Shown: piece after piece, positions 26,997 to 62,920 of the stretch
Layout of the letters: each line of letters opens with the position of its first letter
Numbering within the stretch: position 1 is the first letter of the stretch
NCBI RefSeq assembly: GCF_965363235.1
Contig: NC_134847.1
Span: 51,708,805-51,772,804 of the forward strand
Origin: Mytilus galloprovincialis
Lineage: Eukaryota; Mollusca; Bivalvia; Mytilida; Mytilidae
Length of the DNA: 64,000 bases
Reading direction: 5' to 3'
Translations under genes and position numbers: made by a program
Notes under the pieces: generated by a model
Seen by the model: only the letters and a program-made list of their open reading frames with translations
Told to the model about the DNA's origin: nothing
Databases searched by the model: none

Positions 26997-26998
26997 AT

Positions 26999-28626: not shown

Positions 28627-28636
28627 GTAGGGACTC
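28617..28636 (+). other. Displaced, inverted primer-binding site
   Basis: TGGCGCCCACGTAGGGAC on the + strand resembles a lysine-tRNA-type PBS (compare TGGCGCCCAACGT at 46261). It lies in the middle of a minus-strand element and points away from both LTRs. It should directly follow the 5' LTR, so it marks an inverted segment. It sits between inverted copies of a 21-bp sequence at 28591-28611 and 28636-28656. Confidence 0.7.
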
Positions 28637-28655
28637 TTGATTCAAGTTGCGCTGA

Positions 28656-33000: not shown

Positions 33001-33726
33001 AACTGCCAAATAAACAGAAATTTCGCGTAAGATCTATATTTTATTTAGTTAGATTGGCTGATTTACACCAGTCAAGACTAAATTTAGTAGAGTAGTCGAG
33101 ACTGGTAGAGCCTTGGTCAAAACAATTCAGACTCCACCAAGATCATCTAGCACTAAATCAGACTAGTTAAGTAAAGTTTAGACCTAGTCGAGTACAGTTA
33201 AGTAAAGTTTAGACCTAGTCGAGTACAGTTAAGTACAGTTAAGTACTGTCAAGACAATGTCAAGACTAGTCGAGTAAAATGTGTGCTCTACTAAACTGGT
33301 CGATCACAAAATCTGGTCTTTTCAGACTCAAAGCAGTTCGTAGTGTTAAGAATAAACTACCGGTAATCATAGATACCAAGATTAGAATTTTACATATACG
33401 CCAGATGCGCCTTTCATCTACAAAAGACTTATCAGTGACGCTCGAATCAAACAAAGTTAAAAGGCCAAATAAAGTACGAAGTTGAAGAGCATTGACATAC
33501 AGTACAAATTTTTTATGAGACACCAATTTTTAAGCTTTTTCATGTTTGATTGTATAGCTTGAATTGTTTAATCATGTGTATAGTACGTTTTATTTTGGAC
33601 ACTTCAGTTGTTTAACAAACTACTATCGAACCACATCTCCTTATTTTTATAAAAACCACAGTCATTCTTATTGCTTGTTAAATATTTGTTATTTTAGAAG
33701 AAAAGGCTGACGTTAAAACCAACAAA
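33001..33726 (+). other. Region upstream of the HEPN-STAND gene
   Basis: It contains short direct repeats of gacctagtcgagtacagtta (33180-33240) and an M2 copy at 33375-33510. A possible splice acceptor (ttgttattttag, AG at 33696-33697) lies 29 bp before the start codon, so an untranslated upstream exon is likely. No clear TATA box or promoter motif can be assigned. Confidence 0.4.
33375..33510 (+). repeat. Dispersed repeat family M2
   Basis: It shares tatacgccagatgcgc-like, 'ctacaaaagact' and 'aagttgaagagcattga' with 56505-56645 and, inverted, with 30-135. Confidence 0.65.
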
Positions 33727-33808
33727 ATGGCATATTTACAGTTTAAGACAAATATCCCAGACGAACTCATTGCTGATATCTTGCAGATTCCAAGTTCATC
33801 TAAACAAG
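33727..33808 (+). CDS. HEPN-STAND gene, exon 1
   Basis: The ATG at 33727 starts 27 codons ('MAYLQFKTNIPDELIADILQ' and on), leaving one base before the donor GTAGTT at 33809. The base G joins TC of exon 2 to make Val, preserving frame. The context aaaatgg is a fair start. The peptide is a short amphipathic lead-in to the HEPN region. Confidence 0.65.
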
Positions 33809-36800
33809 GTAGTTCTGCCATTTTTAACAAATTGTCTCATGATAGCATTTTGTACCTGTGTAAGATCTTGTGAATATTGACTATCTGTACTTTCACTATT
33901 TTTTTTTGTAGATCTTATAAATAACTTAACATGTATTGCTATAAGCTTATGGCTTTGCATCATGTATAATTGAATTACTGTATTACCGGTAGTATTGCAC
34001 AAAGTCATGCTTTTTAAGCTGCTTCTGACGTGTTAACATGTTCTCCATTGGAGGTGTACTGAATTTTATTTAAGTTTGGAAACATGGTCAAGTTTTTATT
34101 TAAGTAGAGGTTTGAAATGTCTTTTGTAATTCATTGGTCAATGTTGACTACTGCATATTATATTTAGTTTCCGTTTGTTGTTTTATGGAATAATCATGCC
34201 GTATGTTCCACGGGGCTATGCGGTAAGAAGATATCTCATTGTTGAAGGTCCACGAGTTATGTTCCAATAGTTGCTAACATATACATCATTTTATCTCTGG
34301 TTGGGCTTTGTTTTATTGACCACATTTCATTATTAGTTCAATAACTACGAGTACTAGACTGTGCTGTGTTGTTTTGTCGTTTTGTTAGTCGTTTTGTCTT
34401 TTTCGAATAATTTTTACATTTTTAGATTTTGTACTGATGTTCCAGCTAAGGAGGAGGCCTGAGGATTGATGCCAAACATACTCTTAATCCCTTAAATTTT
34501 CTATGTGACTGTCCCAATCTAAGAGCATGTATGCCAGTGGTTGGGGTTGGTTTAATAAAGTTTATAACCATTTTACATTTGATTATATTAGGTTGAATAT
34601 GCCGTAAGTTTTATATGACCGCAAAAAAAATTGCGGTCGTATATTGGTATCATGTCGTCGTCGTCGTCGTCAGCGTCGTCCGAAGACGGATGATTTCCGA
34701 ATAATAACTTTAGTATAAGTAAACAGAAATCAACAAAATTTTAACACAATGTTTATAACCTAAAAGGAAGCTTGGGATTGATTTTGGGGGTTATGTTCCC
34801 TAAGGTATATAGGAATTAGGGGCCCAAAGGGCCAAACAATAGCATTTATCTAATGTCAGAACAATAAGTTGTGTATAAGTATTTTAATTGTTCTGAAATT
34901 GTACCACAATGTTTAATACCATAAGTAGAAGGTTGAGATATATTTTAAGGGTTATGGGGCGAACAGTCTAGGAATAAAGGACAAAAAAGGGGCCAAAAAC
35001 AAGCATTTTTGTAGTTTCAAGTCAATAAATTGTAGTTATCTTTCTTTGTCCAGAATGGTTGTTGAATCACCTAAAACCAATGTTTTATATAATCTTCTTT
35101 GAAAATTGGAGTTATCTTTCTTTGTCCTGAATAGAAGTTAAATCAACTTAAATCAATGTTATATACAATATACAATGCAATATTCACTTTACTTCCAACT
35201 GATAAATTAAAGCAATCTTTACCATTCAGTGATTACAAGCACTTTGATTACAATTCTAGGGTTATGCCCTTTTACAAGTGGAAAAATTGAAGAATTTATT
35301 AGTTTCTGTTCTCTTAACTTAAGTTTGTCTCAACTAAATTTAATGAAATGTGTATATAATGCTTATTACCTCTAAATTCAGTTTAAGTTAAATTTTTGGG
35401 AGCTTCACTTTTACAGTTCTTGAGTTATGTCCCTTTATCACGTTATATGCTAGCGGGGGCATCATCTGTGTCCTTTTGGACACATTCTCCATTTTATTTT
35501 TAGAAGTTACTATTAATTAATATTAAATTTAACAATGACTGTATGACATTTTATATTTTAATATTTTATGAAGTATTAAAATGAGTAGTTATTTTTGCAA
35601 ACTCCATTAGAAATTTGAACTGAGATCATTTTTGGAATAAGGGAAAGGGGGAAGTGAAGAAAAAAATTGGGATGGGGGTCATTTTTTTTTCTCATTTCAG
35701 ATTTCAGAATTTAAAAAGAAAATTTCTTCAAATATTTTTTCTTTGAGATGATTAATATTCAACAGCATAGGTAATTGCTCAAAAGCAAAAAAAAAAAATT
35801 AAGTTCATTAGACCACATTCATTCTGTGTCAGAAACCTATGATGTGTCAACTATTTAATCACAATCCAAATTCATACTTGCCCCAACCGTTCAATGTTCC
35901 ACCTCTGCGGTCTTATAAAGCTGCGCTCTGCGGAGCATCTGGTTGTTTTTGCAGTTTTGCACGTTTCTTTATCGGCGCCTTTTTGTAGGCAAGTATACGT
36001 ATACTATATGGGATTTTGCCATTGTTGAATACACTGTATAAAGATTATGAGCTGTGATCAGCTGTGGTATGATTGCATATGAAATAACTCTCCATCAGAG
36101 TTCAAATGTGGCTGGTTACAATCTTGTCCTGCGGTCTTAATGTTGGTAGTTTCTCGTTGTAAGTTGTTTTTAACATGTCTCCATATATCTATGTATCCTC
36201 TGTCAGTCTCAGAAAAATATATATATAAGAAGCAATATGAGCACAACGTTATCTGGGTAGATATTGAAGGATAGAAATGCACTATAGACTGAAAGATACC
36301 AGTTTGTTTTCAATTGGTTTGTCTCATATGATAGTCACCCCTATATGTAATAAACAACCACTGAATGAAATACACAAAATGTATTATGTGTCGATAATAC
36401 CTTATGCTGAAACTAACTAATCATCTTCATGTCAGTTGGCATATGAGGATGAAACCAGGTCTCTCCAATGTTGTCTGTCCATACCAAGAAATCCTCGCTA
36501 AAAATTCTGGTGGACCTCCTACGGCACCCATAAGTAGTTCAAGATTTGATTTCATTCAATAAATTAATTTACGACCTGCGTGTACGTCTCATTTAGAACA
36601 CAGCCATGCATCAAATGGTCAACATTAATCATGCATGTAATTTGCTCTATGGGATGTTTGCCAAATTTCAACAGAGGCAATTTCTTCGCATGCTAAATAT
36701 AAACTTCTCCATTTCACCCCAGGTCTTCCCCATGCTTTCAAATTCACTGTCAATTGCCCTTTCCCATGTTCTTGATAATACGTCATAGATGTGTAATAAA

Positions 36801-39800
36801 TATAAAAAAAAAAAACGTTCATGCAAGACATAGATTAGTACATATGCATGCATTGGATCGAAAAAAGTGGTGAAGATAGCAGAAGGACAGTCAAACTCAT
36901 TAATAGAAAATAAACTGACAACACCATGGCTAAAAATGAAAAAGACAAACAGACAAATAATAGTACACAAGAAAAAGGAGGCTCAAGAAACAACAAGGAA
37001 AACAAAAGACTGAGCAACACGAACCCGACCAAAACATAGCAGATCCTGCTCCACATGTTGCACCCATCGTGTTTCTCATGTTATTACAAACCCGGTGAAT
37101 TATCTAATTCGGTAGGTCACATTCATGAAAAGGGAAGGGGATTGATCAATAATTTCGATAATATTAATTTTTTTAGAAATGTTTCATATGACACTTAGGG
37201 TTAAGTCAAATAAGAATTACAGCATTTACGAAGTTGGTATAGCATAAACGTGTCTACCGTTCATTTCATATGTTTCGGAGTAACATACAGTACCCACCAA
37301 TAAATTAACAAAAGTCGTGTAAGTACGACTATTCTATTAACTAGAAATATTGTGGTATCCTCTTATTTGATCTACATTTGTTAGTTATTTTTTGGGGGTG
37401 GTTTACAATCTAGTCTGAATGGTAAATTGATATTTCATTTCAGTCACAAAACCTGATTTGGATGATGAAAAGAAAAGATGGTTGATAGTTGGCATCTGTG
37501 TTCATACAATAGTTGCTCCCGCATTAAGGAGCTATATCGAGCCTATAATAAACAGCTTGTATCGGTCAATGAAGCAAAATCACAATATACACAGCCAAAA
37601 TTTCCCTAACCATTTGAAGAAATATATTCCGACGCACAGAGACTTAAACTATGAAGCAATAAACAATAACAAAAACAAGAAGAAGAAGTTCTCCAGTTAC
37701 GATTACAATGTACAGAATGAAGTGGATTTTGCCAAGCTGTTTTTGGTTACACATATGGCTCACTTTACTGGTTTCGACCACACCTGTGACTCTTCAGCAC
37801 TCCTTGGGCTACTTATCAACATAGATAAATTTCCATCCATAGTCCAGAAAGTCGCAGACAAGGTTTGTATTAAAGGACTAACATGAATTCACCGATGCAA
37901 ACCTTAGTTTGGCTATTGCATGTTTATTTTCTTTGCTCAATAGAAGTTTATAACAAGATTTACCATTGTATTATTTTTGACGGAGTTGATTCGAATCAAA
38001 TACGGATTTATTTGAATATTTTGGATATGTGATTAAGACCTTTAATTTAATTCAATTTAATTTAATTTAAAACGTATTCTTACCTTTCTGTACGTTAAAC
38101 TTCAATCTTTTGTGATAATTATAAGATATCTAAAACAAGAATAAACTTTTTCTTTGTGAAAGAAGAAAATGTCATGCAAAGTTTAAAACGTATAACAAAA
38201 ATACTGAACTCCAAGGAAAATTGAAAAACGGAAATTACATAAAAAATTAAAAAATTAAACGTCATGAACGTTTCTAACAGAACGATATAGTTTTAGGAAG
38301 AAAACAATAAATCGCCCCTTCCATTTTTTTCAAGAAAAAACTTAATAAACTACGGAAGCCGATAAGGGCCATTCAAAAAAAATAAATTAAGTCGTAATTA
38401 CGACATAGCATGTCGTAATTACGACAAAGCATGTCGTAATTACGACATAGCATGTCGTAATTTCGACATAACATGTCGTTATTACGACATCGCTATGTCG
38501 TAATTTCGACATAACATGTCGTTATTTCGACATAACATGTCGTTATTTAATAACGACATCGCTATGTATATAAAAGAATATGTATTATGATTGCCAAGAG
38601 ACTAAATGACACAGAAATTTACAACTATATGTTATCATAATGCCCCCATTAATTAGAAAAGCCCCCGCATAGTCAGCTATAAAAGAGGGACGAAAGATAC
38701 CAGAGGGAGAGGCCCCGAAATGCTGTGTGGCAGACAGTGTTAACATTATTAATTATTAGCTCCCTTGGAAAAACTCCAAATTTCATATTTAAAGTATTTC
38801 ATTGTTGATTAATTTACATGATGCTTAATAAGTATATATTTGTTAATTGCATAGCTTTTGCTATTTGAATTCATTGGTTAAAAATATTTATTCATATTGT
38901 AAAGTTTAATATTTGTATCGTTGCAAAATCTTTGGTCACCTTCTTTGGTTATCTTCTGTGAGAAACTTATATAATTTATAGATCCTAATTGAGTGCTTGA
39001 AGATACCGACCGTGAAAGGGATGCAGAGTTAGTCAAGGTCTTATAAACCTTCTACTTGTTCGAACAAATTAGTGTGGGATTACGTGAGAACTGACACACA
39101 GTCCTACCTATAAACAAGCGCTAACTACATGCCTTCGTGTAATAAGGGTGAATTGAAATATTGATTGCTCTTTTTCTACTTTCAAACGTTGGACACGATG
39201 TTCCTACAACCTCTAGGATTTAAAACAGAATCTTCGAAATTTCATCCGCAAAACAAAATAAAAATGTTAGAAAACACGAACCAATATTAAAACAAATTCA
39301 ATATATGTTTCAAATTATGTTTTTACAGCTCTTGATCATATACTAAGTAATATCTAGTATATTTGATGATTAGATTAGCAAAGCTATGTGAAAAAAACCG
39401 GATGTCCAACGTTACATTTATGAAAAACTGTTTTAAATCTTATGTATAGTGATCCTATTTCTTATTCTCTGATCTTCTTGATACTTGGCAGGAACAACGA
39501 CAGGTGTCGGTTCTTTGTGGCGTTAAAGCCGTTATTTTTGCCAAATTTTATTTGACTTCGGTGGCTTCATATTAAGCGGGAATAAGAAAAATGTCCAACG
39601 ACGTTTTTCGTCATCTCAACGACTGAAAGTGAATTTTGTAAGTAGCAGAAAATGAATAAAAAGAGTAAGACAATAATAATATCTAACAAAAGTACAAATA
39701 TTTGCCTCATTGTTCGTGAGTTCAAATATTGCTGATTCAATAAAATCTTCTCTACACAGTCGTTTTTCAAACGGTAGCCATTTTGTCCAAGTTGATATTT

Positions 39801-42800
39801 CATTTTTCAAAGCATTTAAGGAGGCTCGAGGGTATAAAAATTTCAGAAAAAAATCAAACATTTGTTTTTCATTACAAATTTTATTTATTTCCTTTTGTAA
39901 TTGTTACTTTATCATATGATACAAAATTCTTTCAAAACAATCAATTCGTGTTGGCCCCAGATGACTTTTAAAATGTATACATTATTGAAAAAGTTCCAAA
40001 TTATCTCCCTTTGGTGGAAAAATGCCATTTTTTGGCTTTAAAATTGAAATATCTTTTTCAACTCATCGGTGACCTATCTTTTTTAATATAATTTCCATAT
40101 AAGCTGTACTTAAACTAAATCATTGTAAAATTTGAGCGATTTCTGTAATAAATTTCTTTTTTTATTTCGATATTTACCTTTATTTCTCCTATTACTTCAA
40201 CAGAAAAAAAACACCTTTACAAAAATGTATGCTTCTTTCGAAGGCAGATTGTGAGCGCAAATGAACGGTGACCCCACTTTTTTATTTTATTTTTCTATTA
40301 ACTATAAGATAAAGTTCATTTATAGAAAAATATAGAGAAATCCTATATAAATGATTTAGACCCGCGAACCCCCTTTGTGTTGATGATTGCTGCCGAAAAA
40401 AAAGAATAGCGCATGTTGCTATAGACTCCACCCGGGGACATAGGTTCGACACAGGTTAAATTTTGCAATTTTTATTAATCGTTTATAGCTTTTAACGATT
40501 TATTTAAAAGAATGGTGAAATTGGGGAAAACATTTCATTACATGAACTTCGTCCAACTTTTGCAAAGACAAATTTTAGACACCAAGACAGTCCTCTAAAT
40601 GTAAAATTCGAATTGAAATTTATATTGTGGAAGTACTCCATAGATCATTTAAAGTCGTCACTTCAGTAAGGTGCAATCACCAATATTAAAAGACTTATAC
40701 CAGTTCACGGAGTGTTTTACTTCGCGATTTGTCCTGCTATTCATGTTATAACTGTCGTGATGAAATAAATTCCTGTACTAGCGAAGCCGGAACTTTTCGT
40801 CAATATAAACTTGTGCATGAAATGGAGGTACTAGTAATTGAAAGACAAATCCCAAACAGCGACGAAAACCGTTTCATCGAATTTTAAAAACCCGGGATTA
40901 TTTAAGCCGTTTTCGCGGACGATCCAGGAGTAGATTACTATATTTTAAAATGTATATCAGAAATTAAACACTATAGATGACTTGCGGAAATAATTCTCAA
41001 GCCAAGGTTCAAGTAATTTAAGGGGTGTATTTCGACAACTTATGTACCAGGGAAAATACAATTCTATTCAAATTTAACCAAGGGTAAAAATGTTCGATGT
41101 ACTTGCAGAGTGTCAGATATATTTGTATTGGGGTTGAGTTAAGATATAGAAATTTTACAATGACAGATGATATGCACCTTGAAAGTTAAACATCATATGA
41201 TAAAAGTTTAGTACATCTAAAAAAAAATATCTTTTTTTATGGAAAACTGTAACACATCTTCCTATATCGGGTTCGATGACTTACAGAAAAGAGCGACGAT
41301 TTACAGAAAAGAACCGAAAAGGACCGAAAAGGACCAAAAAGAACCGAAAAGGACCGAAAAGAACCGAAAAGAACCAAAAAAGAAGAAGTTTTTTGTATTT
41401 GAAGAAAATTAGCAAATTTTAAAATTATATAAGTCTATTATAAATGAAAAGATATTTTTCACAAAAGTTTATTATTAAGTTTTGAATTCATTCGAACATT
41501 ACAACAGTTCTTTATAATTTTTTGAAATGTGTTCGATTCATCAGTGATGATATATATAACACGGACATTCGGACAATCGGGCAAAAATAAAATAAAACCA
41601 AAATATCGTTTAAAACATGATTGAAAACTTTACAGGAGTTAATGAATAAATACGAATATTTCGTTCTTTTCGTGTGTGTGTGTATGTGTATTAAATTTTA
41701 AATGAAAACACATTGATTGTTACTTTGACACGTTAAACCTGTCAAGGATTTGAATTCGTCAAGGAAAAGACCCGTTATCTCCATGCACAAGTTTCTCTAT
41801 AGATACACGTAGCACCGAGGGCCAAAATTTATCACCATCTGCCATCATTTCACTAATCTACATATCTGTTTTAAGTGGTTTATTAGATAAAATTAATAGA
41901 AATCAACAGGCCATTAACTTTTTCACACCCTTTAATCTATACGCTATTATGGCGGCTATATAAAGAGTAAACAATTATCAATTATACCGAAAGCGGGTGC
42001 GCTTTTCATTTATTTATATTTCTTGAAAGACGAAATGAAATGACTTTGTTTTGCACAAAATTTATAATATATATAGATAATGATGTATTTTTTTTTTTTA
42101 TTAATCTCCTTTTATTCCCATGTAGCCCATCGTTTAATACCGTAAATTGAATTAAGAAATTGGAACGAATCAAGAACATCGTAAAGTTTGCCAAGGTTTA
42201 CATGTAGCAGGAATTGAAATTTTATTCAAATGTTTTTTACAATTCTATTTTCGAAAACAACGGAAATGACACTTTGATTCTTTATTTCAAAAATATTTAA
42301 ATGCCTTAATCTGATACAGGGAAATCTAACTTTTTATGAGAGCCCAGGTGGTCGTGTGGTCTAGCGGGACGGCTGCAGTGCAGGCGATTTGGTGTCACGA
42401 TATCACAGTAGCATGGGTTCGAATCCCGGCGAGGGAAGAACCAAAAATTTGCGAAAGCAAATTTACAGATCTAACATTGTTGGGTTGATGTTTAGACGAG
42501 TTGTATATATATATATATATATATATATACATTGTTTTAACTTTAAACAATAATGATCAATAATTATATGTGTGCTCTTTTCGGTTCTTTTCGGTCCTTT
42601 TCGGTTCTTTTTGGTCCTTTTCGGTTCTTTTCGGTTCTTTTCTGTAAATCGTCGCTCTTTTCTGTAAATCGTTGGACCGTCCTATATCTACTTCCGTCCC
42701 ATCTTTCTTTTCCACATTACTTGCGACAGTAATGCATTTTTAGTTGAAATAACTTAAAGGGTAAACATTATTAAATAGATTTTCACAACTTGAGGTAATT

Positions 42801-51800: not shown

Positions 51801-54800
51801 AGCATACATTGACAGTCTTGCTGTTAATCCAACTGTAATACCATCACAGGAAGAAGATATACCGGATACTGAAACAGTTGATTGGGCAGCTGCACAAGCC
51901 ATGGATACTACCATCAAGTCTCTTATAAAGTATGTCATTGAAGGAAAAAAACCGACAACTGCAGATATTGGACCAACACCACTACTGCGACAGTTCCAAT
52001 ACCTCAAGATGAAAGATGGTGTACTTTACAGAGAAGTTACTATTGGAGAAGACAGGAAGTCACAGTTAGTTCTGCCATCAGCAAACATCAGCGTTGTATT
52101 AGAGGCACTTCACAACGACATGGGACATCCCGGAAAGGATAGGACTCTGTCACTGATTCGTGACAGATTTTACTGGCCTGGGATGGACAAAGATGTGGAG
52201 GATTGGATACAACAGTGTGGCAGATGCATAAAGAGAAAAACACCAGCCCGTCAGAGAGCACCTTTGGTCAGCATTGAAACTCAGTTTCCACTACAACTTG
52301 TCTGTTTGGATTTTCTCACACTGGAGCAGTCAAAAGGAGGTCACCAGAACATACTGGTTATTACCGACCATTTCACCAGATATGCTCAAGCAGTAACAAC
52401 CAGAAATCAAACAGCAAAGACCACAGCACAGGCACTCTTTGATAACTTTATTCTACATTACGGAATACCACAGAGGATCCATTCTGATCAGGGAGCTAAT
52501 TTCGAAAGTAAAGTTATCAAGGAGCTATGCAATCTAACTGGAATGAAGAAGTCAAGGACTACACCCTATCATCCCATGGGGAACGGGATGTGCGAGAGAT
52601 TTAACCGTACTCTTCTTGGTATGCTTGGAACCTTGGAATCTCATCAGAAAGCCAACTGGAAGCTCTACGTTTCACCTATGGTACATGCGTACAACTGTAC
52701 CCGTCATGAGTCCACTGGAGTAGCACCCTACTTTCTAATGTTTGGAAGAAACCCAAGACTACCCATCGACTTAGCGTTTGGCCTACATAAAGATACCAAG
52801 TTACCAACAACTCAGTATGTAAAGGATCTACGAGACAGATTATCACATGCATACCAACTTGCAGCTGAAACATCAAAGATTGCACAAGCCAATCAGAAGG
52901 AGGGTTACGATCTACGTGTAAGAGGAGCAGCAGTACAGAAGGGAGATCGTGTACTTGTAAAGATTGTGGCTTTTGACGGCAAGCACAAACTAGCGGATAC
53001 ATGGGAAGATACTCCATATGTAGTCATTGACCAGCCGAATTTAGATATTCCTGTTTTCACAGTTGTCAAAGAGAACGGAGAAGGACGAACAAGGAATCTC
53101 CACAGGAATTTATTGCTACCTGTCGGGTATATCAGAGAAGAAACACCAACTGTTATACCAAAACCAGTTCCAAGACCAAGGACAAGATTACAGAGGACAA
53201 TAGCTGAACACCGGACTACTTCAAGTGAATCCAGTGATGAGTCATCTGATGAATCAGTGGATTATTTTGATGTAGACTATGTGCTGGAGAGGACAGTTGA
53301 CAGTGAACCTACATTCACTGATGAACCAGCTGTAGATGCAACAGAACCAGCACAGGATGCCTTCATTCCATTAGGGGACGCCCAGCCTGAGGGGAACCAA
53401 GGGCCAGAAATGGAGACAGCTTCAGGAAGCGCTTCAGATATTGATGGGGATGTTATTCCACAGGAGTATACACCTGTAGAACAGGAAGAACAACCTCAGG
53501 AACTAGAGATGTCTCCGGTACCAGTCAGAAGATCCGGGAGAGACCGTAAACCACCAGCATGGATTTCTTCCGGTCTGTACGACATCTCAGCTATTGGGAC
53601 TACCTCTGTTGGTCACACTATCACCGAGGAACATTCGAAGCCAACAGCTGAGTGGCAAGAGAAGGCTGAATACATTACATCTTTAGCGAGAACACCATTA
53701 TTCTCAGGATTACAACGAGAAGCAGCCTTAGCCATTCTAGATATAGTGAACCACCATTAGTTTGAGGAATGACGGGACGTCATTTTATAGCTGGGGGGAA
53801 TGTGTGGTAGAGCTATATTTTTATGTTTTATGTTATTTAAAATTTTATGTTATTAGAATATATACTGGATATATTCTATTTACAGTTATTATAATTTGTA
53901 ATATGCTAGTTTACTCAGGTAGAACATTTCTTATTGTTTATATCTTTTCTATTGGTCAGTATGATTTAGGCGGGAATCTTTTGTTTAACTATTCTTTGTT
54001 CTGGTCACTTGGCTAAAATATTTATATGAAGTGGTAGCCATTTTCTTCAGCTCTATTGGAAGTTGTTATATCTTTAATTTGATATTGAAATAGTCTAGGA
54101 CTTTCATATTCTTTTATAAGGTCAGTTTATTACTAATATATTCATTACAATAATATTCCAGTTTTAATGTCCAAGAGTGAGTGATATACAAGTGTATAAT
54201 TGTATGAATAGGTGACCGTATTATGAAAGGTGTGTGCGATTGATTAAATAGTAAAGTTATGTGTAAACTATTCATAACTCATAAAGTAATAAAGATAAAC
54301 TTGATAATATAGTTTTATTTGTAAGATTTAATAAACTATATAAATTCTACATAAAACTGGTAAAAGTATGATTTATACTTTAATTTCTAGTAACATTAAT
54401 ATATAATCTATTTTAACAGTTTGTATGAGTGAGCGTTAAATGATTTATACTTCTTTAAAGTTAATACAAGTAAATATTTGATTTACCAGATTTAAGGATA
54501 GATAACTCTGATTATTCTAATCTAGCAGTATAAATAAGGTTTCTATGATTTTAATATTTTGTCTTCAGGTTATATTATTGAAACAGAATGTAAACTGATT
54601 CAAATCAATCAGTTGGTGAAAAGACCTTTGCACTACATGTGAGGTATGTTTATATGTATACAGTTTGTATTGTTCATGTTACTTTTATGTTGCTTTGCTT
54701 AAATGTATTGTCTACTTTGTGTAACTGTTGCAAAACGGAATGTCTTGTTTGCACTTACAATTGCGTGTTATAATTATGTTAAACTAACTATTTTTGGTAT

Positions 54801-57800
54801 GATACTACAAGCATAGCTACGTATTAGCTGTGAACTTAGTCTGTCGTTGCATATTTCACAATGCACTAAATACAGGGAAATATAGAATGTACTTATTTAA
54901 TACAGAATTCGGAATGGTGTAATATCGTTTTGTGTAGCTTGTACAAATATTATTTTAAAGAGCAAAGGAAATCTACAGTTTCTTCTATGCATATAGATAT
55001 ATTGATTTTATAGTAATTGATAATTACTACTTATTGAAATGTATAAGAAATATATTGTTATTATTTCAGGGTCATTTTTGTTAGAATATTAACATCAATT
55101 CTGATGAAATAAAGAACCTAAGACCTATCAACGTGTTTGTGTTTATTTAAATACATGGGAAGCACTACTACATTAGTTCGGTGAATGTCTGTCTTTGTTT
55201 TTCTAAAATTTTCTTGTTATAATTAGGTCGTTAGTTTTCTCAATTGTATTGCTTCAAATTTTCATGCCGGACCCTTTTATAGCCGACTTTACGGTATATG
55301 GTTTTCTCATTGTCAATGGCAATACGATTGCATATAATTGTTTACATCCACTTCATTTTAAAATTTGGTGGATAGTTGTCTCATTGGGAATCCTGCCACA
55401 TCTCCTAAAAAGTAAAATCACAAAAATACTGAACTCCGAAGAATACCGAAAACGAAAAGTCCCTAACCAAATGGCAAAATCAAACAAAAAAAACCCACAC
55501 AAAACGAATGGACAACAACTTTCATATTCCTGACTTTGTACAGGCATTTTCAAATGTAGAAAATGTTGGATTGAACCTGGTTTTATAGTGCTAAACATCT
55601 CACCTGTACAACAGTTGCATCAAATTCCAGTTCATTGACAACGATGCGTGAACAAAACAAAGACATAATAGGGGTGCAACAGCAACACGAACCCCACCAA
55701 AATATGTGGGTGTTCCGGAAGTGTAAGCAGAACCTGCTCCACATCTGACACCCGTCGTGTTGCTCATGTTATTACAAAGCCGGTAAATAGTCTAAATCGG
55801 TAGGTTACATATGTGAAAAAGGGAACGGGATGGTAGTTACGACATAAGGAACATATCCGATATCATCGGAATAGAGATTTTCCGTAATTTTGTTACATCA
55901 CCTTACAAACAGTCTTGTAGCAAAATGGAAATTAAAAGAAACGGGCATTAACAACGTTCTGTTTTTTTAATGCATATAAACTATTTACTTGTCATACATA
56001 TATTATTTACTTTATTTAGATTCGTTCTGATATAAGGAACCCATGGGCTCATTGTGACTTTTCGCAGTGGGATGCAAACAAATATATTTCATCATTTCAA
56101 CTCATGTACCAGCTCATAAGGAATTTGGGATTCACAACTACAGAAGAAAATAGGATATTGGGCGACTTAACTATCTGGGAAACCAATGGCAAGTGTTATT
56201 TTACGCGTGATTACCAAATGAATGAAAATGTCTTTAGAGCTTGTTCCAATCGTCTGAAACTCCATACAATATACAAGAATCTTGAATGAAATTAAAAGGG
56301 GTGGGGACATTATTTCTATATTTTACACTGAATTAATGCACATTTGTTGTCGAAATGCGCAATTCGTGCAGAAAATTATTACTGTTAATGTTATGATATA
56401 TATGTTAATATATAATTTACCACTATCGCTTTTAAAGCAGCAGGTTTTGATCAATGTAAAGAGGTAGATTTTTTGGCAACATTTTGTAGCTCGCACTAAA
56501 TAAACTCATCATAGATACCATGATTAAATTTTTATATTTACGCCAGACGCGTGTTTCGTCTACAAAAGACTCATCAGTGACGCTCGAATCCGAAAAAGTT
56601 AAAAAGGCCAAATAAAATACGACGTTGAAGAGCATTGAATACCAAAATTCTTAAAACTAAGTTAAATACAACTAAAGTAATCTATTCCTGAGGTAGAAAA
56701 GCCTTAGTATTTCAAAAATTCAAACGTAAACAGTTAATTGATAAATATGACCATATCCATAATAATTCATGTCAGAACAAAAGTGCTGACTACTAAAAGG
56801 AACATTATATAAGAAACAATCTTCTGTTTTTCCACAGGCATTCTGTTTCTTCAAGGGAAAACCATAGGCCTGGATTTGCTTGAAGAGGTAACAAAGCAGA
56901 CCACTGTTCTTGCCAAATATGCCATAACAGTTACCGATGAAACAGAGGAAAGTTTTAAAAATGTTGAAAATGAATTGTTGAGCATTCAAAATAGGTTAAT
57001 ATCTTTCACTCAGCAGATCCTGCAAATTGAGAGTAAACAAGAGGCATTTCAAATTGCTATTGAAGAAGCTGGTAACAAGATTGCAGTACTGAGGGATAAA
57101 CATACAAAGTTTGAAAACAGGCAGACAAATAATGAAGAAAAGATTGAGATTGCGAAACAAGTTTTGGAAAAAACTATAGAACAAATTGAAGAGTTGAATA
57201 TTTCAACTAGTGAAATAGTTTCAAATGTTGGTTATCTATCCGAAACGCAAGCAAGTACTAAAAAGGGTTTAACTGAAATTAAAGAAAGTATTGGTGGAAT
57301 CAAGGAAGATATTGAGAAGATGAAATATAATTCTCACGTAAGACAAGAAGGAAAAGTTTATTTTTATCCACCAGACCGAATAAAGTTCTTTGTAGGTAGA
57401 CGCAGAGAATTGAAAGCCTTACAAGCAAATTTTATAAAAAACAAAGATTCTCAATATGCTCAGGTTGTTTGTGGACTTGGAGGATGTGGCAAAACTACCG
57501 TTGCTATAGAGTATGCCTGGCAATTTCAGAACTTTTATCCAGGGGGTATATTTTGGATGTCTGCTGAGTCTAACGAAATATTAGAAACATCAGTCTCAAA
57601 TCTGGCAATAGATGTAAACACAACTGGAAACACCGCAAGAGAAACACTTTTGCGAACCCTTAAATGGATAGCCACATTACATACTCAATGGCTCCTTATT
57701 ATAGACAACGCTGATATTGATGAACTCTCATTTTACATGAAAGAATTGTTTATAGGTACATGGAAACGAAACACGTGTGGACATATACTAATAACCTCCA

Positions 57801-60800
57801 GACGGGAACCCAAAGAAGTAGAAGAATCTTTCCAAATTGACCAAGATGATTGTCTTTACCTAGATGTATTATCTCCGGAACAGGGTTTGGAGTTTCTAAA
57901 AACAAGAACAGGGATAAACAGTGAGCATGAAAATGAAATTATTCTGGAACTAAGTACAGAACTTGATGGGCTTCCTCTAGCACTTGAACAAGCAGGTGCA
58001 TATATTAAGGCAAAACAGTGTTCATTTGAGCAATATATGGGAAAGTTTACGAAGCAAAGACAAAAACTTTTGAATGCTATGCGCATTAAAACGTCTCAAA
58101 TCACTCAGAAAGAAAGACTAGCAGTGAAAACTACCTGGCAGTTGAACATTGATTATATACAGAAAGCATCCGAGGAGGAAGGACTAGGTGCATCTGCTGT
58201 GAAAATCATGGAAATCGCATCATTTCTGTCGCCCGATGATATACCAATTGAAATTATTAATGATGGTTCACCTCCAATTGAAGATGAAGAAATGAATGAG
58301 TCACTACAAGATTCATTTGGAGGAAAGCAGATAATTGAGATCTTAACAAGGTTTTCCCTTTTCCAGCAATATCGAGAAGATACTCTATCAGTACATAGAT
58401 TAGTACAAGAAGTAATAAGAGACAGCTTGCGAGATTTGAGCAATGTTAAAATAATTTTACAACATGCGACAAGAATGATCAACAAAGCTCTTATTTCAAC
58501 ATTATCTCCTTACAAGGCTCTTTGTGTTGAAAAAGGAGAAGCTCCAGGAAGAGGGTCACTTTATTTATGGAGTAAATTGGCTACAAATGCAAACATATTA
58601 AAGAGTCACATTGTTTGTTTTATAAAGGAAAAAGAGAACGACGGCTCATTGCATTTGAACTTGGAAATGGCAAATCTTCTGCACACATCAGCAGTATTTC
58701 ATAGTGTATATCAACGCCAAGATGAAGCACTTGCAGATCAAGAGCAGTTACTTCATATCATGACAGTTATAGACATTCCGAAAGAAAAGTGTTTGGAATT
58801 TACATCGGTCAAAATACCCTTATTAGAACGAGACAGAAATATGATTCAAGATTGTTTGTCCGCAGTTTTAATAAACTTCAGAGATGATGGAGAGTTTAAG
58901 TTGCCAGATGAAATAGACAGTTTAAGGATAAAAGGCAACGATGCGTTTAGGGAGAATAGATACCATGATGCAATTCAGTATTACACAGAAGGTATAAAAT
59001 CTTCTCCAGAAAAAACTATTGACTTTAAGTTGTTTTCCAACCGAAGTTTACTGTATCTGAAAGTTAACGATTATGAAAATGCTTTAAAAGATGCAGAAAA
59101 ATGCATTGTGTTAGCTCCTAACCATTGGAAAGGGTACTGCTGGAAAGCGTATGCTCTAGCAAACTTAGTGAGAAATGGTGAACTAACTTTTGAATTTGAA
59201 AAAGTAGGTCTGGCATCAGCTTGTATTGCGGCAAATCTAAATAGTAAAGTTTTGGTGGAATATAACATGAAAGTGAATTATCCACTTGTTGTCTACAAGA
59301 TTATAGAAAACTCAAGTGATCTCTGTTCAGAAATATCATCAATACAGGGTCGCCCGTATTCAACAATTTTGTTAAAAAGTGGATACTATACGCTAACAGA
59401 TCATGTTATCATCTCCAAAAGTATTCAAATTATTGGCATAGACAATAATGTCGAAATTGACTTAAAAAATTATCTTAAAATATTTAACCTACCTACTTCT
59501 GTATTCAGCATTCATTTCAAAAGTGAATGGCAAATACATATTCATTTTGAAAACCTTTCATTTGTACCAAATAGCGCACAAATTGGAATCCTTTCAAACG
59601 CAACAGCTACTTTTTACAAATGTAAAATATCAAATGGGGCTAGAGGATGTGACGATTACCCTCGATGTAAGGGTGGATCTGGTTGCATAAAGCATCCAGT
59701 GAAATGTTCAAGGCTAATGGAGGTCCCTGGGTTGGCAAATTTTGCTACAGGTGAGCAAGGTTATCCTGGACTTTGGGTAGGGTCTGGTGGCAAACTGATT
59801 GTACAAAATTGTGTATTGGACAAATGCGGCGGAGGAGGAGTCCTCTCTGATGGGGATGGGGCCCATCTTGAAATACGGTATTGTACAATACGAAATATGA
59901 GAAGTACTGGAGTAGAAGCTAGAAATGGTGGAATGGTGAAAGTTGAGGACAATGTAATTATTGATAACCAGTTACATGGAATCATGATAGCTCCCAGAGG
60001 TAATGGGATAATACACAGAAATAATATCCAAGGGAACGGTCAAGAAGGTATATTCTGTGGTGGAATACTCAACCCAAATAATTTTGGCCAAATCATTGGG
60101 GACATGAGGTCAAAAGAAGCATCACAAGCTGTTATTGCTGATAACATTATTCTACAAAATGGATTATCTGGTATATCATTAGATGGGGGAACATATGAGG
60201 TGTCAGGGAATAGAATTGTAGAAAACTGGCTATGGGGAATGATGATTAAATCAAGATCGTCGGTTTATGTTGTAGGCAATGATATTTTTGAAAACAAATG
60301 TGGTGGTATACGCATTGGATCAAACTACTCAGCCTCTGTCATTATTGATGGTAATACGATAAGAGACCACACAGGGCCAGATATTTATGTAACCAATTCC
60401 CCTGAAAAATTGATGGATCAGAGATTGCAAACGGTATTTAAAGCTATGAGTAAAGAAATCGAAATGGCAGAAGAAAGTTCTATGTACACCAGACCTCCAA
60501 TTATCACAAACAGAAACATCAGAAGAAATAATAACAAAGGCGTCCAGCACCCAAAGGAAGCAGTTCAAATAATCCAAACCTGTTGCTTCTGTTATCGTTC
60601 TTCACTTCGACTTAAACGGTGTAGTAAATGTGGAGCAGCCACTTATTGTTCCAAAGAATGTCAGGCTAATCACTGGAAGAAACACAGACACATGTGTAAA
60701 CTTCTTCATAAAGAATATACTATACAGATCAAAATGAAAAACACAGAACCTTTTATGAAACCAGGTATGGTGAGAAACTTCAATCCTTCTTTAAAAGGAA

Positions 60801-61096
60801 TAAAGGAAGGTCCAAAACCAGACCCAAAAAGCTCAAAAAAGTTCATAGTCAAAGTTCAGTCAGGTCAGGAATATGGACCATTTGATCCACTGAAAATTCT
60901 TGTGCTTTACGATAGAAGCGTGACGTTAGACATTAAGCTATCAAACCCTGAACTTTATTGTCTTGTAAATGAATGTGGCATTCTTGCGGGTGAATCACTC
61001 TCAACAAAGAAAATATTTTGTTGGGCTTCTTTCAAAGACAATGGTTCAATCCTTTGTATTCATACGGACAATTTACCTCCATTTCAAACATGGTAA
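33727..61096 (+). CDS. HEPN-STAND-TPR-beta-helix-MYND protein (whole gene)
   Basis: Four coding exons (33727-33808, 37444-37862, 56020-~56194, 56838-61096) give about 1644 aa. Order: HEPN-like domain (aa ~29-225, motif R173-N-x3-H178), coiled coil (~240-395), STAND/NB-ARC NTPase (P-loop GLGGCGKT 438-445, Walker B 'WLLIIDNAD' ~510, 'GLPLAL' ~602, 'VHRLVQ' ~744), TPR (~919-1002), right-handed beta-helix (~1066-1408), MYND finger (1474-1512) and a ~130-aa tail. HEPN domains are often RNases and STAND NTPases are signal-triggered oligomerising switches; both facts come from the families. I infer a cytosolic innate-immune or stress sensor in which the switch activates HEPN. Exon phases agree throughout. 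Introns 1-3 contain transposons. The joining is predicted, not observed; the exon 3 donor is the weakest point. Confidence 0.75.
34612..35943 (+). mobile_element. Cassette-bearing element B in intron 1
   Basis: It starts with a hairpin atatgaccgcaaaaaaaatt followed by gcggtcgtat, then gtcgtcgtcg words. It has cassettes shared with element A ('aataagttgtgtataagta', 'acaagcatttttgtagtttc') and ends in ctgcgctctgcggagcatct, a GC-rich 3' hairpin (gctc-tgcg-gagc). The last 34 bases of the window (63966-64000) are the reverse complement of this end, so at least three family members are present. No transposase; Helitron-like by structure only. Confidence 0.65.
36870..37140 (+). repeat. Dispersed repeat family M5
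   Basis: It shares 'aaataaactgacaacacca', 'gcagatcctgctccacatgt' and 'ctcatgttattacaaa' with 2735-2930 and 55690-55870. Confidence 0.65.
37444..37862 (+). CDS. HEPN-STAND gene, exon 2 (N-terminal half of HEPN)
   Basis: The acceptor atatttcatttcag precedes 37444. Two bases complete the split Val codon and 139 codons follow, ending at AAG with a donor GTTTGT (phase 0). Residues include 'KKRWLIVGICVHTIVAPALR' and 'HMAHFTGFDHTCDSSALLGL', a helical pattern I associate with the DZIP3-like HEPN family in molluscan proteins. That family assignment is recognition from pattern and should be tested. Continuing past the donor gives only nine more residues and a stop. Confidence 0.7.
38391..38566. repeat. 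Tandem palindrome array, left arm
   Basis: About eight ~21-bp units of gtcgtaattacgac followed by atagcat or ataacat. The 14-bp core is a perfect palindrome; later units have aatttc or ttattt variants. Strong cruciform potential. Possible transposase binding array. Confidence 0.9.
41270..41395. repeat. Inner inverted repeat, left arm (gaaccgaaaaggaccgaaaa)
   Basis: It begins ttacagaaaagagcgacgat and continues as tandem 10-bp words gaaccgaaaa/ggaccgaaaa. It is the reverse complement of 42574-42690. Together they bound a ~1.4-kb segment nested in the 5.4-kb element. Confidence 0.85.
42345..42530 (+). mobile_element. tRNA-derived SINE
   Basis: It starts gcccaggtggtcgtgtggtc with an A-box-like tggtctagcggg and a perfect B-box ggttcgaatcc at ~42416-42427. 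This is followed by a non-tRNA body (aatttgcgaaagcaaattta, gttgggttgatgtttagacg) and a TA-repeat tail (42505-42528). Pol III promoter plus body plus simple tail is the SINE layout. It lies between the inner inverted repeats. Confidence 0.75.
42574..42690. repeat. Inner inverted repeat, right arm
   Basis: ttcggttcttttcggtcctt words ending in ctgtaaatcgtcgctctttt, reverse complement of the left arm at 41270-41395. Confidence 0.85.
43562..43728. repeat. Tandem palindrome array, right arm
   Basis: Units of tgtcgttattacgacatagc and tgtcgaaattacgacat, the inverted counterpart of 38391-38566. Confidence 0.9.
43777..44887. other. Intronic AT-rich spacer between the two large elements
   Basis: No gene, RNA or complete repeat is recognised. 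A GC-richer stretch near 44051-44145 (cccaccgtcgaagtcgaagg, ccgtccgacttgtctctgtc) looks like a repeat fragment but has no second copy in this window. Confidence 0.5.
45614..45621 (+). promoter_or_regulatory. LTR TATA box
   Basis: tataaata in the second half of the LTR, a likely Pol II core promoter placing the start of R near 45645. Only consensus evidence. Confidence 0.45.
46191..46196 (+). terminator. LTR polyadenylation signal
   Basis: gaaataaagaac, followed by a GT-rich stretch gtgtttgtgttta, which is the usual downstream element. Together with the TATA box this implies a long R (~570 bp) and a very short U5. Confidence 0.5.
46261..46273 (+). other. Primer-binding site, lysine-tRNA type
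   Basis: TGGCGCCCAACGT matches the complement of the 3' end of the animal tRNA-Lys(1,2) over 13 bases, three bases after the LTR end. The extra bases between CA and TGG are expected because integrase trims the ends before insertion. Confidence 0.75.
46274..48334 (+). other. Untranslated leader of the retrotransposon
   Basis: A 2.06-kb AT-rich leader with many potential upstream starts but no coding signal. The 104-codon frame at 46260-46574 starts in the PBS with a TTG and is not called. The leader is unusually long, so ribosome access to gag may need splicing or internal entry. Confidence 0.6.
48335..49444 (+). CDS. gag: Gag polyprotein
   Basis: 369 aa from the ATG at 48335 (the frame is open a further 21 bp upstream only through a TTG). 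It forms the particle and packages element RNA. The charged N-terminus (MPKENTISEEDFALLQLLKK) is followed by a capsid-like helical region (residues ~75-255; 'YAFWRYEVCGLMEDKVYD', 'GLKTELKDISGHKYDTIKDF'), an Arg/Gly-rich stretch ('RGRGRGYINYRGQNNNR') and one CCHC zinc knuckle C334-x2-C337-x4-H342-x4-C347. This is the standard Metaviridae Gag layout. It overlaps pol, which is entered by -1 frameshifting at 49405. The stop is at 49442-49444. Confidence 0.93.
   Translation: MPKENTISEEDFALLQLLKKEVKEKPKGDDVQGLKDWMKEYLATSGEIVTPKEESQEKETSKTKTTVTYTNMRDPPKVTNFSGSNSKGEATYAFWRYEVCGLMEDKVYDTDNISYAVRKSLKGEAGTIVMHLGPKASLPDIIHKLDSIYGDVEKKEDLLAQFYRARQGDDESVTKWSCRLEDIIGKAIEKGMVQHKDANTMLHSMLWSGLKTELKDISGHKYDTIKDFDELRIALRHIERDHEERKTSKKPQTAKAAAISEPINNTSEFEEVKGLIQQLTTRFDRMETDYRGRGRGYINYRGQNNNRYTDTRQRRWQDRSKPQASSANQDERRCFRCGKPGHLKLGCIEKLDKDGKPLNFKKSMEQDHR
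49402..53760 (+). CDS. pol: Pol polyprotein (PR-RT-RNase H-IN), expressed by -1 frameshift
   Basis: The frame is open from 49402, right after a stop at 49399-49401, so Pol is made as a Gag-Pol fusion; a TTG at 49495 is not a credible start. Domains in order: retropepsin with LLDTGST (Asp codon 49558), reverse transcriptase with 'CVDMKSGYHQVEI' and the FIDD catalytic box near 50890, RNase H beginning 'ELHTDASGTALGAVLY', integrase with the zinc motif 'HNDMGHPGK...CGRCIKRK' near 52110-52240 and D,D-35-E residues near 52309, 52486 and 52590 ('CLDF', 'HSDQGANF', 'GMCERFNRTL'). A GPY-like module and a ~190-aa acidic tail containing 'RRSGRDRKPPAWI' follow. No stop or missing catalytic residue is seen. 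It ends 42 bp before the 3' LTR. Confidence 0.95.
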   Translation, partial: TFKLQEVYGAGPSIDLCTSGTASGPYSLPPGLHGKPTETEVVLYGKTVKTLLDTGSTVSTISHTYYHSNLTDIPLLHMNELLDIECADGKQLPYEGYLETEIILPHQTNTYPCLLLVIPDSNYNTQIPLLLGTNTLQPVMESLKDQHGTRFLQSCNLTTPWYLTFRSITLREKELSRNDNALAIVRNAVNKPVTIKPNSTIKIEGYTDKEIPYSTTAAMLHSSELQPNWKDLDIEPILLDYRYRNNGKIYVQIANVTTRTITIQPKAVLCAIQPVNIEQQPTDTSSTSSILEQVEITESDLTEDQLDRGIEFIKSFEDIFAKNDEDIGNTEVKHHIDLIDTRPFKQRYRRTPPAMYDEVKSHLRQLLSNGTIRPSHSPYASNVVLVRKKNGKLRLCVDYRQLNNLTIKDSYALPRIEDLLDSLAGSTFFTCVDMKSGYHQVEILEEHKERTAFTVGPLGFFEYNRMPFGLTNSPATYQRMMEECLSDLHLKICCIFIDDVIIFGKTFEEQLENLRLVFDRIRQHNMKLAPDKCSFFKRKVKYVGHVVSADGVEIDPAKTEKVVSWPKPTNPEDVRRFLGFVGYYRRFIKQFSQISKPLTDLMPNPTVKKSSKKHQQKPWQWGEGQESAFKRLKELLISAPILGYANSELPYELHTDASGTALGAVLYQEQQGIKRVISYASRGLTKSEKRYPPHKLEFLALKWAVSDKFKDYLYGSNFTVLTDNNPMTYVLTTAKLDATGHRWLAALAAFNFNIVYRPGKKNGDADGLSRLPQPTDKDSTNRETISIESVKTICNSILPGAYIDSLAVNPTVIPSQEEDIPDTETVDWAAAQAMDTTIKSLIKYVIEGKKPTTADIGPTPLLRQFQYLKMKDGVLYREVTIGEDRKSQLVLPSANISVVLEALHNDMGHPGKDRTLSLIRDRFYWPGMDKDVEDWIQQCGRCIKRKTPARQRAPLVSIETQFPLQLVCLDFLTLEQSKGGHQNILVITDHFTRYAQAVTTRNQTAKTTAQALFDNFILHYGIPQRIHSDQGANFESKVIKELCNLTGMKKSRTTPYHPMGNGMCERFNRTLLGMLGTLESHQKANWKLYVSPMVHAYNCTRHESTGVAPYFLMFGRNPRLPIDLAFGLHKDTKLPTTQYVKDLRDRLSHAYQLAAETSKIAQANQKEGYDLRVRGAAVQKGDRVLVKIVAFDGKHKLADTWEDTPYVVIDQPNLDIPVFTVVKENGEGRTRNLHRNLLLPVGYIREETPTVIPKPVPRPRTRLQRTIAEHRTTSSESSDESSDESVDYFDVDYVLERTVDSEPTFTDEPAVDATEPAQDAFIPLGDAQPEGNQGPEMETASGSASDIDGDVIPQEYTPVEQEEQPQELEMSPVPVRRSGRDRKPPAWISSGLYDISAIGTTSVGHTITEEHSKPTAEWQEKAEYITSLARTPLFSGLQREAALAILDIVNHH
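49405..49411 (+). promoter_or_regulatory. -1 ribosomal frameshift slippery site TTTAAAC
   Basis: T-TTA-AAC is in phase with gag codons CCT-TTA-AAC and reads TTT-AAA after a -1 slip into pol. It lies 3 nt after the last pol-frame stop and 30 nt before the gag stop. Nine bases downstream a stem can form (tct-atgg at 49421-49427 with ccat and aga at 49435-49445). Confidence 0.85.
53793..53802 (+). promoter_or_regulatory. Polypurine tract
   Basis: ggggggaa followed by tg directly before the 3' LTR; primes plus-strand DNA synthesis. The two bases TG between tract and LTR fit end trimming by integrase. Confidence 0.8.
53803..55172 (+). repeat. 3' LTR (1370 bp)
   Basis: Identical to 44888-46257 in length and, as far as I can compare by eye, in sequence except for one base at 54181. 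Confidence 0.95.
55187..55870 (+). repeat. Dispersed M1, M4 and M5 fragments in tandem
   Basis: 55187-55412 matches M1 (ttgtctcattgggaatcctg), 55412-55690 matches M4 (aaaatactgaactccgaag, tttgtacaggcattttc) and 55690-55870 matches M5 (cagaacctgctccacat). The same order suggests they are parts of one longer family. Confidence 0.65.
56020..56194 (+). CDS. HEPN-STAND gene, exon 3 (HEPN catalytic motif)
   Basis: The acceptor tattatttactttatttag precedes 56020, phase 0, matching exon 2. The exon encodes 'IRSDIRNPWAHCDFSQWDAN' and on to 'LGDLTIWETNGK'. The R-N-x3-H motif (R173, H178 in the joined protein) is the HEPN signature. A phase-1 end is required by exon 4; GT at 56195 satisfies it, but GTTATT is a weak donor. 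The alternative GT at 56193 gives the wrong phase. The exon end is therefore uncertain by a few bases. Confidence 0.7.
56505..56645 (+). repeat. Dispersed repeat family M2 in intron 3
   Basis: acgccagacgcgtgtttcgt, tcatcagtgacgctcgaatc and gttgaagagcattga match 33375-33510 and, inverted, 30-135. Confidence 0.7.
56838..61096 (+). CDS. HEPN-STAND gene, exon 4 (coiled coil, NTPase, TPR, beta-helix, MYND)
   Basis: The acceptor ctgtttttccacag precedes 56838. GC completes a split codon and 1418 codons follow to TAA at 61094. The frame is uninterrupted for 4.25 kb, strong evidence of a real gene. Coiled coil at 56876-57340; NTPase with P-loop at 57473-57496 and Walker B 'LLIIDNAD' at ~57689; helical arm with 'VHRLVQEVIRD'; TPR 'GNDAFRENRYHDAIQYYTEG' (58930-59170), of the co-chaperone type; beta-helix coils of ~22 residues with Gly/Asn turns, e.g. 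'VSGNRIVENWLWGMMI' (59356-60380); MYND finger beginning CCFCYRSS and ending HRHMC (60581-60697); a tail with no recognised fold. The beta-helix resembles the CASH/pectate-lyase type. Single-exon coding of all these domains suggests retroposition or intron loss in its history. Confidence 0.9.
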
Positions 61097-62571: not shown

Positions 62572-62920
62572 GGTTTTCATTGCACTTCAATGTTCCTGAT
62601 GTTCGTTTGTTTCCTCTTATAATTGGCATGTTTCCATCGGTTTTCATTGCACTTCAATGACCCTGATGTTCGTTTGTTTTCCCCTTATAATTGGCATGTT
62701 TCCATCGGTTTTCATTGCACTTCAATGTCCCTGATGTTCATTTGTTTCCCCCTTATAATTGTCATGTTTCCATCGGTTTTCATTGCACTTCAATGTTCCT
62801 GATGTTCGTTTGTTTTCCTCTTATAATTGGCATGTTTCCATCGGTTTTCATTGCACTTCAATGTTCCTGATGTTCGTTTGTTTTCCCCTTATAATTGGCA
62901 TGTTTCCATCGGTTTTAGTT
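62572..62920 (+). repeat. 68-bp tandem repeat, 5 copies
   Basis: ttttcattgcacttcaatg begins units near 62572, 62641, 62709, 62777 and 62845 (periods 69, 68, 68, 68). Units also share cctgatgttcgtttg and ttggcatgtttccatcgg. Few substitutions, so the array is young. Confidence 0.9.

Follow-up and report, generated by a model that had tools for sequence, protein, structure and literature searches.

A predicted Mytilus galloprovincialis protein with HEPN, NB-ARC, TPR, beta-helix, and MYND domains resembles NLR-type STAND receptors and shares its layout with proteins of distant animals

The window analyzed here, a stretch of 64,000 nucleotides from the Mytilus galloprovincialis genome, contains on its forward strand a four-exon gene predicted to encode a protein of 1,642 residues in which a HEPN domain is followed by a coiled coil, an NB-ARC/DUF7779 module, a TPR region, a right-handed beta-helix, a MYND finger, and a conserved tail. 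We hold with moderate confidence that this protein is an NLR-like STAND receptor, that it belongs to an old animal family which keeps this order from HEPN to tail, and that its output upon triggering by a ligand would be RNase activity. Judged from sequence comparisons, the gene and its HEPN-to-MYND architecture are almost certainly real, and the protein is very likely an NLR-type STAND switch. An immune role for this mussel HEPN-STAND protein is probable, and the proposal that its HEPN domain acts as an RNase could equally prove right or wrong.

A preliminary description of this DNA had proposed four phase-consistent exons encoding about 1,644 residues, with a GLGGCGKT P-loop and an R-N-x3-H motif embedded in much the same domain order. 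The gene model stood at 1,642 residues plus a stop codon when exons 1 to 4 were joined in phase, with joins identical to those of the M. edulis protein P0001, and the order and both motifs were borne out by Pfam profiles and motif positions. Exon 1 (33727..33808) supplies the start codon and residues 1 to 27 and is identical to that of the M. edulis model; exon 2 (37444..37862) encodes the main part of the HEPN domain and is joined in the same way in that model; exon 3 (56020..56188), also present in three paralogues, encodes the part of the HEPN domain with the R-N-x3-H motif; and exon 4 (56838..61096) runs as one open frame from the coiled coil to the stop codon. The introns between them (33809-37443, 37863-56019, and 56189-56837) have GT, GT, and GC donors, in that order, and AG acceptors throughout. 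Two of the junction combinations tried kept the frame, and the one with recognizable donors was chosen. At the GC donor of intron 3 (ATG/GCAAGT), three paralogues have GT at exactly that place, and apart from the GC, the donor G/GCAAGT presumably agrees with the donor consensus.

The open frame of exon 4 comprises 1,427 codons, compared with a maximum of 120 among 200 base shuffles. Because exon 4 is a single frame that holds all of the Pfam matches above cut-off, the order from NB-ARC to MYND is independent of any splicing assumption, and the join of exons 1 to 3 to exon 4, with an 18.2-kb intron separating exons 2 and 3, is the part that needs support. Were exons 1 to 3 and exon 4 separate genes, the full architecture would be an artifact, as might be imagined from the length of intron 2, the retroelement inside it, the one GC donor, and the possible pipeline origin of the models from other species. 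We consider this highly improbable. In M. edulis, P0001 (1,639 residues) has the same joins and is 98% identical to the predicted mussel protein, its differences, 22 substitutions plus a single gap of 3 residues, all lying beyond residue 246. The HEPN motif and the P-loop also lie in a single predicted chain in M. trossulus, Mercenaria, Ruditapes, Tachypleus, Branchiostoma, Montipora, and Stylophora, these joined models being predicted proteins that may stem from annotation pipelines instead of RNA. Finally, 14 of the 15 genomic copies of exon 4 are paired with a HEPN exon.

Several other features were recorded in the window. The retroelement in intron 2 (48308-53760, forward strand), labeled by eye as probably Ty3/gypsy-like, has a gag-like frame, in which PNMA scored above cut-off and CCHC below it, that overlaps a long pol-like frame, the first 400 codons of which gave protease and dUTPase matches below cut-off; a search of 46500-55600 for direct repeats of at least 60 bases, as candidate LTRs, found none. 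The same intron has palindromic tandem repeats of the ATGTCGTAATTACGACAT type at 38391-38583 and 43564-43731. Dispersed repeats are shared between intron 1 (36985-37130) and intron 2 (55670-55815; 86% identity over 85 columns) and between the region before exon 1 (33401-33500) and intron 3 (56540-56640; 89% identity over 96 columns). Upstream of the gene, large arrays with repeat units of 15 to 63 bases lie on the forward strand at 10808-12354 and, in the opposite orientation, on the reverse strand at 16568-17508 and 19810-21375; these arrays are open in several frames. A 363-residue open frame at 7204-8295 (forward strand) with TPR matches below cut-off may be a neighboring gene, and a frame at 26418-28641 (reverse strand) with weak C2H2 zinc-finger matches adjoins retroelement integrase fragments. 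Downstream of the gene, a tandem array at 62572-62916 contains 5.1 copies of a 68-base unit with 94% matches.

Exon 4 begins with a coiled-coil region (56870..57325; borders estimated), which the Tropomyosin, DUF2408, and SMC profiles matched weakly and which has the lowest identity among the large segments. This is followed by the NB-ARC NTPase domain (57407..58057; Pfam NB-ARC, 1.6e-9, above the curated cut-off), with the P-loop GLGGCGKT at 57473-57496, and by DUF7779 (58178..58432; 6.2e-10, above the curated cut-off), which contains VHRLVQ and which we take to be winged-helix-like. The K and T of the P-loop were kept in all 24 chosen homologue rows, and the Walker B D, the GLPLA P, and the MHD-like H were kept in 23 or 24 of them. 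The features of a STAND/NB-ARC protein (NB-ARC profile, P-loop, Walker B, GLPL, and winged helix with MHD-like His) were thus all found, and the STAND-type, NLR-like switch that had been proposed earlier is supported by both profiles and by the conserved motifs. A Pfam scan of exon 4 revealed no death, CARD, or TIR domain, and neither exon 4 nor P0001 gave a Pfam match to an LRR, the C-terminal element of an NLR in the strict sense.

By sequence, the nearest solved structure to the NB-ARC domain was Apaf-1 (E value, 3.7e-4), which has a CARD and WD40 repeats. This likeness, together with a widespread layout that is under purifying selection, would suit a cell-death platform similar to Apaf-1 that serves in development or stress without sensing pathogens. 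We regard such a role as very improbable, since the mussel protein shares the NB-ARC domain with Apaf-1 but carries a HEPN domain and a beta-helix in place of the CARD and WD40, and since the clustered duplicates and broken copies described below would resemble an immune-type birth-and-death family.

The switch module has prokaryotic relatives in at least 505 stretches, of which the best 80 loci, containing 86 switch frames, were analyzed. Within these best 80 of at least 505 loci, the matches span the switch module, with 26 to 34% identity over approximately 320 to 550 residues, and at a threshold of 1e-3 none of the 86 frames matched the HEPN, TPR, beta-helix, MYND, or tail profiles. In eight frames hand-picked from the 86 and scanned, an N-terminal domain was recognizable in seven (four with TIR/SEFIR and one apiece with HD-CE, phosphoesterase, and CHAT), and TPRs were found behind the switch in all eight. 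Because TIR/SEFIR, HD-CE, phosphoesterase, or CHAT domains sit in front of the switch in these relatives, the comparison suggests that the N-terminus is an effector position and that HEPN is its occupant in the mussel protein. The prokaryotic NB-ARC-DUF7779-TPR STAND proteins are therefore like the mussel protein in the switch module and unlike it in having front domains of their own. The nearest named model, NF040586 (FxSxx-COOH system TPR protein), matched exon-4 residues 187 to 541 at 7.9e-58, with 196.6 bits against an equivalog cut-off of 300 and through the switch module alone; PADLOC returned weak matches only.

The HEPN assignment, also made in the preliminary description, draws its support from a nearly invariant R-N-x3-H motif, with HEPN profile matches that lie below cut-off. 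The motif, RNPWAH at residues 173 to 178 (56035..56052), is of the active-site type Rx4H and agrees with the Rx4-6H motif of the HEPN superfamily, which usually begins with R-N. In 38 rows chosen from the 120 HEPN matches listed, R and H were invariant and N was kept in at least 90%, with columns averaging 27% identity. The pattern RN.W[AS]H occurred in 117 of the 120 matches listed and in 28 of 28 new rows from a further search. In a separate list of 120 rows, it occurred in all 24 that have more than 330 residues ahead of the P-loop, and the stricter RN.WAH occurred in 27 of those 120.

Profile searches placed this domain near two HEPN families. An N-terminal slice of 228 residues matched Pfam DUF4559 (PF15112), which we take to be the CXorf38 family, at 1.4e-4 (21.9 bits; cut-off, 27) and HEPN_Swt1 at 1.4e-3 (19.4 bits; cut-off, 27.5), and each of the two profiles matched four of six aligned rows. 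With a 385-residue N-terminal piece, HEPN_Swt1 was matched at 1.1e-3 and DUF4559 was absent from the list; with whole-length P0001, HEPN_Swt1 at 0.026 was the sole HEPN profile match; and HEPN_Swt1 matched 7 of 24 full-length homologue rows (E values up to 0.1). The M. trossulus relative P0161 exceeded the DUF4559 cut-off (28.8 versus 27 bits), and upon Pfam rescanning, P0171, P0180, P0215, and P0183 fell below it while P0162 and P0232 gave no match. Precomputed labels among the 120 matches listed were PF15112 in 11 and PF18731 in 1, and of the labeled rows rescanned, P0171, P0180, and P0227 were narrowly under the DUF4559 cut-off. A DZIP3-type HEPN (PF18738) was not matched at E values up to 1 by either the 228-residue slice or the 385-residue piece; the short relative P0162 is named DZIP3-like by UniRef, and its rescan gave no HEPN match. 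Searches of solved structures with HEPN profiles found no HEPN, one search being empty and the other giving one weak hit (E value, 0.78; molecule NF6). Overall, the N-terminal domain looks like a HEPN of the CXorf38/Swt1-like and not the DZIP3-like kind.

MYND and TPR are peptide-binding modules, and the HEPN domain might itself be a noncatalytic adaptor that binds RNA or protein, with the output passing through partners of the coiled coil, TPR, or MYND. A precedent is that the HEPNs of Swt1 have been called inactive (PMC3710099). We consider such an adaptor rather unlikely, because an invariant R and H and an almost invariant N, at so low a mean column identity, would be needless for an inert scaffold.

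Mytilus also has HEPN-nSTAND3-ankyrin proteins, which share the HEPN domain (45 to 61% identical, with the same motif) and differ in their NTPase class and in their ankyrin repeats. The nSTAND3 assignment comes from the precomputed label PF20720 in 23 of 24 ankyrin rows and was confirmed for P0122 by a scan. A HEPN tree separates the NB-ARC type from the nSTAND3-ankyrin type with one or two changes, which gives no support to the idea that HEPN has recently been swapped wholesale from one STAND type to another.

Behind the switch, the HOP-like TPR region (58922..59215; TPR_2, 5.7e-8, above the curated cut-off) had STIP1/HOP as its best solved match (2.3e-32). The right-handed beta-helix (59348..60361; borders estimated) contains the best stretches matched by Pfam Beta_helix (1.4e-21, above cut-off) and NosD (1.3e-13). 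The MYND zinc finger (60581..60697; Pfam zf-MYND, 7.7e-8, above the curated cut-off) kept its Cys/His columns, presumably the zinc ligands, in 18 or 19 of 19 rows, and the last such column in 19 of 20, as expected of a MYND domain. The C-terminal tail (60698..61093) found no match in Pfam and was conserved among Mytilus rows at a mean identity of 60% (56 pairs), equal to that of NB-ARC (90 pairs).

The beta-helix of FBXO11 picks a client. A chaperone-coupled STAND protein acting as a switch in proteostasis, with its TPR bound to Hsp70/Hsp90 tails and its beta-helix selecting a client, would agree with the proximity of the TPR to STIP1/HOP and with the source name FBXO11 carried by one lancelet homologue. 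The residues at the clamp positions, mapped by hand, were R,N,N,K,W in the mussel protein and P0001 and R,N,N,K,R in B. floridae, two rows from corals, and one further row, which would also favor such a switch. We nevertheless judge it improbable. The strict carboxylate clamp, given as K5N9-N6-K2R6 where PMC2939883 defines it, was not found, Arg replacing Lys at the first place and Trp occupying the last, as it does in 15 of 24 rows, and no F-box was matched by Pfam in the mussel protein or in six scanned homologues.

The same domain order was found in other bivalves, where a search for it had been suggested, and also in horseshoe crab, lancelet, and coral. Pfam detected NB-ARC, DUF7779, TPR, Beta_helix, and MYND, together with the HEPN motif, in Tachypleus, B. 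belcheri, and Montipora. Across 24 chosen rows, clams included, Pfam matched NB-ARC in 24, DUF7779 in 23, TPR_2 in 22, Beta_helix in 21, and MYND in 19, some of the models being incomplete. By Pfam, Stylophora P0100 gave no match to MYND, and B. lanceolatum P0144 gave none to TPR or DUF7779 and only a subthreshold one to NACHT; the B. floridae model P0034 lacks the HEPN motif. An NB-ARC tree of 28 regions, rooted by choice on corals, placed the lancelets in one group and Tachypleus, on a long branch, with the bivalves (support of 99 to 100), thus following the species, with separate duplicates within mussels and within clams. Because the layout recurs in clams, horseshoe crab, lancelet, and coral and because the tree follows the species, the family seems to be old and no novelty of mussels, and the simplest reading seems to be that the layout predates the cnidarian-bilaterian split.

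The exon-4 product gave 32 matches in the M. galloprovincialis genome, which were grouped by hand into 15 copies, the remainder being short matches elsewhere. These copies, located at C10:51.66-51.91, 75.27-75.44, and 77.79-77.96 Mb and at C5:36.8-37.15 Mb, comprise 13 long ones (including that of the window) and 2 in pieces (C10:51.69 Mb and C5:37.11 Mb). Among the long copies, L093 carries a single stop, L098 is detached from its first part, and L101 has its last 30 codons in another frame. An exon-2 match was paired by eye with 14 of the 15 copies, 2 to 32 kb upstream on the same strand; the copy without an upstream HEPN exon is the broken one at C5:37.11 Mb. Exon 3 was found within 1.5 kb upstream in 4 of the 13 long copies (the window's included) and partially in a fifth, and for the remaining long copies the pairing rests on the exon-2 search. 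The other copy in pieces has a HEPN exon, runs in the opposite direction (C10:51691708-51706612, reverse strand), and ends 2.2 kb before the start of the window. The exon-2 product itself gave at least 72 genome matches (itself and fragments included), five of them with stops. By eye, 58 of these at least 72 matches were unpaired with exon 4, and 35 of the at least 72 lie on C12 and C14, at sites such as C12:21.7-22.8 and 31.9 Mb and C14:58-73 Mb. The HEPN exon has undergone a large expansion in the mussel.

Exon 4 was under purifying selection in all nine paralogue pairs with a whole-exon dS below 2: omega was 0.19 to 0.32 for the five in which dS was below 1 and 0.12 to 0.17 for the four in which it was 1.6 to 1.8. 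The stop-bearing copy L093 was excluded from the dN/dS analysis, and in three distant pairs most or many segments had reached saturation. The exon-4 copies have been retained and show no strong signal of an arms race. Change tends to be fastest in the coiled coil and in the linker that precedes MYND; among ten Mytilus rows, mean identity was 40% in the former, 44% in the latter, 52% in the beta-helix, and 60% in NB-ARC. The top four windows by ratio included exon-4 residues of approximately 870 to 995, at the start of the helix, in three of five pairs, with all ratios below 1. A beta-helix serving as a hypervariable substitute for LRRs is not supported by its 52% identity and by the finding that 0 of 432 sixty-codon windows across the five pairs had an omega above 1.

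HEPN-STAND fusions have already been published. CXorf38 was placed in the Abi2/Swt1 HEPN group and called active, the human protein was proposed to act against RNA viruses, and CXorf38-family HEPNs were described as fused to NACHT STAND NTPases and DEATH in cephalochordates and cnidarians (Anantharaman et al. 2013, PMC3710099). Those proteins and the mussel protein probably have the same HEPN group before a STAND NTPase; however, the passages of that study on such fusions name NACHT, dsRBD, ankyrin, CARD, and DEATH as partners, whereas the mussel HEPN is accompanied by NB-ARC, TPR, beta-helix, and MYND, and molluscs are not among the taxa named there (PMC3710099). HEPN-NACHT proteins occur in pearl oyster and in cnidarians, with expansions in pearl oyster and anthozoans, corals have NACHT/NB-ARC proteins with an N-terminal DZIP3-like HEPN, and coral NB-ARC proteins mostly carry TPRs (PMC9646362, PMC8260672, PMC10236652). 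The DZIP3/hRUL138-like HEPN-NACHT proteins likewise have HEPN before a STAND NTPase, but theirs is NACHT where the mussel has NB-ARC, and the relevant passages of these papers mention neither a beta-helix nor MYND. Literal spellings searched in open PMC text returned no animal protein joining a beta-helix with MYND, NACHT, NB-ARC, NLR, or TPR, the single listed paper dealing with fungal NLRs. A HEPN-STAND protein with beta-helix and MYND was thus not found in print, nor was a family name; because the search covered open PMC text and literal spellings, such absence is weak evidence.

In the receptor that we favor, the NB-ARC/winged-helix module would bind ADP at rest and hold the protein closed, perhaps with chaperoning via the HOP-like TPR. 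Binding of a ligand at the C-terminal beta-helix/MYND half, either directly or through a partner, would free the switch, and ATP-bound protomers would then oligomerize through NB-ARC and the coiled coil. The oligomer would pair the HEPN domains so that their R-N-x3-H motifs form an RNase site, and cleavage of host or invader RNA would lead to a stop in translation or to cell death. A bolder version, which we offer as a tentative possibility, is that this unnamed family, older than the cnidarian-bilaterian split, is an ATP-driven HEPN ribonuclease assembly and the direct animal counterpart of the prokaryotic effector-STAND-TPR proteins; its beta-helix/MYND half would read a ligand so constant that the domain has stayed under purifying selection since that time, and a second STAND type in mussels bears this HEPN as well.

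To our knowledge, the output of NLR-like proteins of marine invertebrates is largely open, and human CXorf38 is not known to be an RNase. By analogy with the prokaryotic proteins, a conserved HEPN domain at the effector position would give the receptor layout found in mussels, clams, horseshoe crab, lancelet, and coral a direct and testable output in the form of RNA cleavage. The common switch ties this layout to prokaryotic STAND proteins, and the finding would also bear on human CXorf38, a member of the HEPN group that the mussel domain resembles.
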